In this document: piece by piece, positions 4,882 through 5,223 of the stretch | How positions within the stretch are numbered: position 1 is the first letter of the stretch | How the letters are laid out: every line of letters starts with the position of its first letter | Source: Pseudopedobacter saltans DSM 12145 | GTDB taxonomy: Bacteria; Bacteroidota; Bacteroidia; Sphingobacteriales; Sphingobacteriaceae | Assembly: GCF_000190735.1 (NCBI RefSeq) | Contig: NC_015177.1 | Location: 1,364,001-1,428,000, forward strand | Length of the DNA stretch: 64,000 nt | Reading direction: 5' to 3' | The notes under the pieces: generated by a model | Told to the model about the DNA's origin: nothing | The model's input: the letters and a program-made list of their open reading frames with translations, nothing else | Databases searched by the model: none | Translations under genes and position numbers: made by a program

Positions 4882-4984
4882 ATTTATAAAGAAGTGGTAA
4901 GAGATCAGGCTCTGAGACCCACTGGCAACCTTCCAGCAAAAACGGAAAAGGTGCCAAATCCTGCCCCGAAAGGGAAATATAAAT
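4882..4984 (+). promoter_or_regulatory. SAM riboswitch (SAM-I/S-box clan)
   Basis: The leader carries the S-box core: AAGAGATCAGGCTCTGAGACC, then CACTGGCAACC, a variable hairpin (TTCC...GGAA), then AAGGTGCCAAATCCTGCC and a CCC-GAAA-GGG hairpin. ATTTATA (4882-4888) pairs with TATAAAT (4978-4984) as the closing P1 helix. The SAM clan senses S-adenosylmethionine. It sits upstream of a Cys-rich leader ORF and the O-acetylhomoserine sulfhydrylase gene. No obvious intrinsic terminator follows P1, so SAM may act on translation of the leader ORF or by another route. The exact subclass (SAM-I versus a SAM-I/IV variant) needs a covariance-model search. Confidence 0.85.
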
Positions 4985-4994
4985 ATTTAAAGAC

Positions 4995-5108
4995 ATGAAA
5001 AAAGCTATTTTAAACAATTCTGAAAAATCACATCAACTTCATATAACGGACGTTAGTGGCTATACCCTATCTATGGCTAATTGTTGTATGTGTTGCTGTA
5101 TGTGCTAA
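4995..5108 (+). CDS. Cysteine/methionine-rich leader peptide (37 aa)
   Basis: A short ORF starts at ATG 4995, eleven bases after the riboswitch P1 helix, and ends TAA at 5108. It encodes 37 residues starting MKKAILNNSEK and ending SMANCCMCCCMC: five Cys and two Met in the last eight codons, immediately before the stop. No signal peptide or membrane segment is visible. Position (between SAM riboswitch and a sulfur-assimilation gene) and the clustered terminal Cys/Met codons are what a ribosome-stalling attenuation peptide would look like. A Cys-rich metal-binding micropeptide is the alternative. I know of Cys-rich leader uORFs regulating sulfur genes in mycobacteria; I cannot say whether this one is described. 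Confidence 0.65.
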   Translation: MKKAILNNSEKSHQLHITDVSGYTLSMANCCMCCCMC

Positions 5109-5119
5109 TTTCCCCGGCA

Positions 5120-5171
5120 CTGCAAATCTTTGCCTATATTGCAGGTAATTTGCAATAGAATTGATGCAAAT
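5120..5171 (+). promoter_or_regulatory. Candidate attenuator: mutually exclusive pairing segments
   Basis: TGCAAAT at 5121-5127, its exact complement ATTTGCA at 5148-5154, and a second TGCAAAT at 5165-5171 lie between the Cys-rich leader ORF and the sulfhydrylase start. The middle segment can pair with either neighbour but not both. CTGCAA (5120-5125) can also pair with TTGCAG (5139-5144). A ribosome held on the terminal Cys codons (stop at 5108) would be ~12 nt from the first segment. No U-tract follows, so the output may be accessibility or Rho loading rather than intrinsic termination. Confidence 0.5.
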
Positions 5172-5223
5172 GCATAATCCAAAAAAAAACAGAATTAATT
5201 TAAACTTTTAATCTAAAAAAGAA

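Follow-up and report, generated by a model that had tools for sequence, protein, structure and literature searches.

In Pseudopedobacter saltans DSM 12145, formerly named Pedobacter saltans, the O-acetylhomoserine sulfhydrylase gene metY is preceded by a SAM-I riboswitch and by a short open reading frame (ORF) that ends in a cluster of Cys and Met codons. Our comparative analysis supported that these elements probably form a serial two-input leader, in which SAM gates translation of the leader ORF and the supply of Cys- and Met-tRNA positions the ribosome on it. We also lean, if slightly, towards a fuller reading: the riboswitch would control the start codon of the leader and not that of the enzyme, so that the SAM sensor gates a second sensor, that of Cys-/Met-tRNA charging. 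This serial logic gate would be kept across the family, with the ribosome position at the leader stop being read by a downstream hairpin. If true, one mRNA would integrate the end product SAM with the building blocks, sensed as charged Cys- and Met-tRNA, with no protein regulator. In this family, whose members live in soil and water, a sulfur-metabolism gene would then be under two sensors apparently in series, one for a metabolite and one for amino-acid supply.

The features were located in a 64,000-nt stretch (the window) of the genome, which is one contig of 4,635,236 bases:

4876–4880, forward strand: 5' strand of P0 (GUCUU), a predicted extension of riboswitch stem P1; covaries in relatives
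4881–4985, forward strand: SAM-I riboswitch aptamer (RF00162, 73.3 bits against a cut-off of 44.4)
4990–4994, forward strand: 3' strand of P0 (AAGAC), abutting the leader AUG; predicted to pair with 4876–4880
4995–5108, forward strand: leader ORF of 37 codons, ending A-N-C-C-M-C-C-C-M-C-stop
5082–5105, forward strand: Cys/Met codon cluster C-C-M-C-C-C-M-C, candidate sensor of tRNA supply (from the sequence and its conservation)
5121–5127, forward strand: segment TGCAAAT of the first-pass annotation; present, not conserved
5148–5154, forward strand: segment ATTTGCA of the first-pass annotation; present, not conserved
5165–5171, forward strand: segment TGCAAAT of the first-pass annotation; present, not conserved
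5224–6525, forward strand: metY, O-acetylhomoserine sulfhydrylase, the regulated gene (TIGR01326, 681.5 bits against a cut-off of 495.1)

metY lies in a cluster of sulfur and homoserine genes. Ahead of the riboswitch is another Cys/Met PLP enzyme (3630–4742), whose best NCBIfam match, cystathionine gamma-synthase, is below the cut-off, and a homoserine dehydrogenase gene (6754–7977) follows metY.

The first-pass annotation had placed a SAM riboswitch and a 37-codon ORF with a C-C-M-C-C-C-M-C end ahead of metY, and both were confirmed, the riboswitch above the curated cut-off. It had also proposed a search for the peptide in relatives, where the Cys-rich end turned out to be kept. A SAM riboswitch scoring above the Rfam cut-off is present at 73 of the 80 named MetY loci (7/7, 8/15 and 58/58 in the three batches). 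Every one of the 73 has a short ORF that starts 5–14 nt past the aptamer, the place equivalent to that of the P. saltans leader. With an ORF finder that considered ATGs within 33 nt and chose the ORF with most Cys, the last 12 codons contained at least two Cys in 70 of the 73 loci, at least three in 62 and at least four in 53. The gap between leader stop and metY measured 70–179 nt in the 70 loci with at least two Cys. In the 62 loci, Cys made up 40% of the last 12 codons, a value inflated by selecting on Cys, and Met 12.8%, which is not directly affected by that selection; the remainder of the leader contained 2.3% Cys and 0.7% Met. The seven MetY loci lacking the riboswitch had no such ORF with three Cys (one of them was searched over 119 nt of upstream DNA). 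Of 20,000 dinucleotide shuffles, 32 produced a leader-like ORF with at least three Cys in its last 12 codons, and the leader ORF is far beyond chance. By this comparison, riboswitch and Cys/Met-rich leader ORF are a real, conserved arrangement. A short conserved ORF with codons of the pathway's own amino acids near its end, as expected of a ribosome-mediated attenuator, is thus present.

Some of the 11 loci with fewer than three Cys end in Met-containing motifs (RMR, MSMPGC). The Cys-poor leaders of L185, L244, L086, L090, L094 and L108 have the Met-containing ends MPMRMR, SMRMRMPM, MAMSMPGC, TRMR and ARMRGGMVRMCC, and Met codons may stand in for Cys codons there.

Several observations were suggestive of leader translation. 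In 69 of the 73 loci, with ties credited to the leader frame, the densest window of Cys codons shared its frame with the leader AUG, and 28 Pedobacter leaders of equal length had no internal in-frame stop, versus means of 4.3 and 1.5 in the other two frames. A comparison of synonymous and non-synonymous rates, also proposed by the first-pass annotation, showed the end to be more constrained than the rest. In these 28 leaders, which were selected by their ending CCCIQ and include near-duplicates from two collections, dN/dS fell from 0.70 over the first 34 codons to 0.12 over the last eight, the latter value being biased because the leaders were picked for their ending. Synonymous change amounted to 0.10 at the last eight codons versus 0.23 in the first 34. 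The pattern is consistent with a peptide whose residues are of little importance apart from its end, where an RNA constraint would add to the codon constraint. Codons 5, 6, 8 and 10 (AAT, CTT, TCG, AGC) were invariant in all 28 leaders (L083 and relatives), which suggests an RNA-level constraint near the leader start.

The conserved Cys/Met-rich end fits codons or residues alike, and Cys clusters can bind metals. It could thus belong to a functional peptide, either metal-binding or an arrest peptide that senses Cys, Met, SAM or a metal through its own sequence and not through tRNA charging. We consider this unlikely, because outside its end the peptide is under weak constraint (the dN/dS of 0.70 over 34 codons) and differs between genera, constraint at the end extends to synonymous sites, though in a set chosen for its ending, and the peptide had no Pfam or NCBIfam match.

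The distribution of the leader among genes was compared in 191 riboswitch loci (100 of them picked from longer listings), 76 in the window's family and 115 in other Bacteroidota. A leader was defined as an ORF of 15–60 codons starting within 30 nt and having at least three Cys in its last 12 codons. Genes after the riboswitches were assigned by BLASTP to nine self-chosen references, whose names, other than MetY, homoserine dehydrogenase and PAPS reductase, are presumed from inspection by eye. In the family, the leader was present at 14 of 16 metY and both metX loci. It was found at none of the loci of metH (0/18), cysteine desulfurase (0/12), TonB-dependent receptor (0/15), homoserine dehydrogenase (0/4, one with two Cys), thioredoxin-like proteins (0/4) or others (0/5). 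Outside the family it occurred at 1 of 54 metY loci, at the single TonB receptor locus (1/1) and at none of the 60 remaining loci. The contrast between metY plus metX (16/18) and metH (0/18) gave 4e-8 in Fisher's test, which ignores relatedness. Moreover, the metH and desulfurase loci (n = 58) had no such ORF anywhere from riboswitch to gene. As the leader is present in metY/metX loci yet absent from metH loci, it tracks metY and metX and is not tied to the riboswitch as such. If true, the serial arrangement would explain why the family has a leader before metY and metX, and none before metH with the same riboswitch class.

The same distribution bears on the possibility that the riboswitch acts on metY directly and that the ORF is incidental. 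That 53 of the 54 riboswitch-metY loci outside the family do without an ORF of at least three Cys is compatible with it. Nevertheless, we regard it as very improbable given the fixed distance from the aptamer in 73/73 loci, the Cys/Met end, the coding conservation and the absence from metH loci.

The best evidence for a coupling of the two putative sensors is an extension of the aptamer stem, P0, which was absent from the first-pass annotation. In the window, GUCUU (4876–4880) pairs with AAGAC (4990–4994) in both the MFE and the centroid structures. Across relatives the strands vary and the pairing is kept (GTCTT/AAGAC, GGTT/AACC, GATT/AGTC, GGTC/GACT). The scoring of P0 listed 119 leaders, 16 of them without a scored 5' strand, and two (L107, L108) were dropped from the permutation. 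When partners were permuted, the observed mean score of 8.94 compared with 7.29 (sd 0.31) and was reached in 0 of 20,000 permutations (71 distinct combinations). Keeping one row per 5' strand (48 rows) again gave 0/20,000, and one row per 3' strand (28 rows) gave 13/20,000. The rows of alignments A3 (25) and A4 (22) were picked by hand, mainly from loci in which P0 had been noticed by eye. In A3, 89% of the P0 cells pair and three of four pairs changed on both sides, as did 72 of 500 shuffles; its covariation score was reached by 0 of 500 shuffles and slid versions scored far lower. In A4, 96.6% of the cells pair, one of four pairs changed on both sides and the covariation score was again reached by 0/500 shuffles. 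P0 was absent or poor in L036, L038, L040, L041, L042 and L051.

Translation initiation in Bacteroidota is mostly independent of Shine-Dalgarno pairing. P0 abuts the leader AUG and covaries in relatives, which corresponds to the stem overlapping an initiation region that is expected of a translational riboswitch. A covarying stem in this position implies that SAM would shut leader translation. Since the spacing is just 5–14 nt, a terminator cannot fit between aptamer and leader AUG. The reading that we favour is that the start codon acting as riboswitch output here would be that of the leader. In other parts of the phylum, aptamers of this class lead into a U-tract terminator (L122, L246 and L264, by eye) or, in L236, into the own start codon of metX, 11 nt past the aptamer.

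The first-pass annotation had described attenuation stacked on a SAM sensor, with three mutually exclusive segments after the leader. This idea is right in outline, as the Cys/Met leader and the riboswitch are conserved; the specific wiring is not supported. In such classical attenuation the segments at 5121, 5148 and 5165 would be alternative partners, and a stalled ribosome would pick terminator or antiterminator. The segments exist and can pair. When the 115-nt region was shuffled, 97 of 4,000 versions (2.4%) had a 7-mer triple of this kind (W..W'..W), as did 11 of 2,778 windows of 115 nt across the 64 kb, so the three segments are only weakly beyond chance. In relatives, where the first-pass annotation had proposed to look for covariation, the post-leader regions contained no such triple (0/67 named loci and 0/21 other leader loci), and a 6-mer triple was present in 4 of the 21 other leader loci versus 715 of 4,000 shuffles. 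The post-leader RNA of the window folds no better than shuffles (z −0.10). The sole terminator-like match in 4500–5700 is inside metY, with none between leader and metY in the window, and relatives showed no evident intrinsic terminator after the leader, as judged by eye. Alternative terminator and antiterminator segments involving the codons, another hallmark of ribosome-mediated attenuators, were not recovered either, since the codon pairings do not covary. A three-segment attenuator as a conserved feature was rejected based on shuffles and relatives, and we judge classical attenuation to be quite unlikely.

The serial reading places the read-out in hairpins after the leader stop, which were recognised in two groups of relatives. 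A1 comprised 21 of the 73 named loci (Pedobacter-type) and A2 21 of 27 listed loci. Pedobacter-type loci have two hairpins (b and c) after the leader. Their hairpin b (CTTCC/GGAAG) is invariant in 21 rows and is without covariation support because its sequence never varies. In hairpin c, four of five pairs changed on both sides, and the covariation score of the structure was reached in 0 of 500 shuffles. Mucilaginibacter-type loci have a different hairpin b, with 94.4% of cells paired versus 92.7% in shuffles (8/500 as high) and one pair changed on both sides. As a version slid by two columns reaches a similar covariation score, though with 65% of cells paired, the support for this hairpin is modest. 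Within the genus of the window itself, the RNA after the leader has weak structure.

The 5' arm of hairpin b starts 3–11 nt (Mucilaginibacter-type) or 3–13 nt (Pedobacter-type) after the stop, near enough that it should be partly covered by a ribosome standing at the stop. Under assumed ribosome footprints, the mean predicted probability of hairpin b in 21 loci rose from 0.66 in untranslated RNA to 0.83 when a ribosome was stalled at the Met-Cys codons, and fell to 0.20 when it stood at the stop. The footprint taken for the stop reaches 10 nt beyond it, and by construction much of the hairpin's 5' arm is then blocked. Hairpin b was still predicted with a ribosome at the stop in L057 and L099.

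Pairings that involve the codons themselves were rejected. The Pedobacter-type helix between TGTAT (codons) and ATACG (after hairpin c) was 96.1% paired, with no two-sided change and no excess over shuffles, and the local codon hairpin TGTATG/CATACA was 93.5% paired with no two-sided change. The Mucilaginibacter-type pairing of codons with the hairpin arm, the relatives' equivalent of a classical switch, was 92.9% paired, without covariation, and predicted to be rare (mean probability 0.07 when untranslated). In a lenient search of seven loci for known RNA families at the post-leader hairpins, RF00162 was found in each and nothing else was accepted; a sub-threshold match to a Streptococcus sRNA in L032 (E 0.25) was ignored.

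With E values up to 1 accepted, a model of the Pedobacter-type element (R1) gave 74 rows, spread over 73 of the 301 family genomes. Sixty-six rows had E up to 3.3e-9, one per genome and all in genus g30, and the remaining eight (E 0.013 or worse) were ignored. The 30 strong sites fetched from the 66 were all located before MetY and behind a Cys leader. The window's own genome had no R1 match.

The aptamer, the ORF position, the Cys/Met cluster, the P0 covariation and the post-stop hairpins in two groups of relatives, all supported by comparison, would fit together as follows. At high SAM, the aptamer would hold P1 and P0, the bases upstream of the leader AUG would be paired, the leader would be untranslated and metY expression would be low. 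At low SAM the clamp would open and ribosomes would enter the leader, where their progress over the terminal Cys/Met codons would report the supply of Cys-tRNA and Met-tRNA. A ribosome that reaches the stop would cover the start of the hairpin located a few bases past it, whereas stalling in the codon cluster would leave the hairpin free. The RNA would then decide metY expression, and stalling may raise it. Rho-assisted termination or pausing is our guess for this last step, because no intrinsic terminator was found. C exceeds G in 63 of 70 leader ORFs (minus their last 12 codons), in 70 of 70 post-leader gaps and in 17 of 70 metY stretches. The same was seen at 15 of 18 metH 5' regions, so this composition, the sole hint for Rho, is not specific.

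Translational SAM-I riboswitches are known, as are metabolite-plus-leader systems such as Salmonella mgtA/mgtL. The former share with the metY locus an aptamer by a start codon and the latter a leader peptide joined to another sensor, but the clamped start codon here would be that of a Cys/Met leader and not that of the enzyme. We recognised no description of a SAM riboswitch joined to a Cys/Met leader in the literature searched, the scope of which stopped short of subscription journals and preprints, and the portions covered of PMC7366714, PMC3766115, PMC12121620, PMC2965389 and PMC9373788 contain no description of such an arrangement.

Among the closest known parallels are the Cys-run leader peptides before the cys operons of Mycobacterium and Propionibacterium and before cbs of Bifidobacterium, for which the authors proposed Rho (PMC1262725). 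These are also short ORFs with Cys codons by the stop and no conserved terminator hairpin, but they belong to another phylum, and the part of that article covered mentions no riboswitch, Met codons or start-codon clamp (PMC1262725). The metY leader has both a Cys run by the stop and no terminator; it would work like the polycysteine leaders without being a member, because phylum and riboswitch differ. Polycysteine leaders in mycobacteria have been the subject of later experimental work.

Other known leaders resemble the metY leader in part. As far as the covered text of PMC8632094 goes, uORFC-8-2 before cysS of Rhodobacterales is likewise a uORF with conserved Cys codons in a structured leader, but with two tandem Cys codons, an intrinsic terminator with a U run and no riboswitch. 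The metL leader MSTTSDRTPATEATTTPGARCMCRRMCAF before metNIQ of Streptomyces lividans has Cys and Met codons at its end and no clear terminator; it differs by its leaderless start, transporter operon and phylum, and no riboswitch is named in the sections covered (PMC8079986). The leader-peptide attenuation inferred for amino-acid biosynthesis operons of Flavobacterium psychrophilum is of the same phylum and general class, but the sections covered hold no SAM/Cys combination (PMC9723704).

Amino-acid leaders were also observed at other loci. In the P. saltans genome, hisG (L302) has a His-rich leader, MNKFLNTVHHHLHHRHLGGVI, which ends in the pathway's codons about 70 nt before the gene if a TTG start is used, with no evident U-tract terminator by eye. 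Being of similar build, it indicates that such leaders are not peculiar to metY. Among the riboswitch-TonB receptor loci (L116–L141, L220; e.g. L122, L120, L130), 9 of 15 have a separate short ORF with at least two Cys near its end (e.g. MKKTDELKSIEINLNTCFRMRGAC), which starts about 100–140 nt past the aptamer and well upstream of the receptor gene. In L122, aptamer and Cys ORF are separated by a U-tract terminator. These loci appear to be a second SAM-plus-leader arrangement. In L264, of a different family, a SAM riboswitch, a U-tract terminator and the leader MKKTTTFPSKTTVANAFKFAAACCCCQKFAACCCKC precede a PAPS reductase-domain gene (PF01507), seemingly a Cys leader before sulfate assimilation. 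Genome G484, also outside the family, has three SAM riboswitch loci (L259, L268, L269), each with a Cys-rich short ORF and before three different genes. Finally, a Flavo-1 RNA (RF01705) lies just 3' of metY in L034 (2821–2898), and a cobalamin riboswitch on the opposite strand upstream of metY in L100 (736–934).
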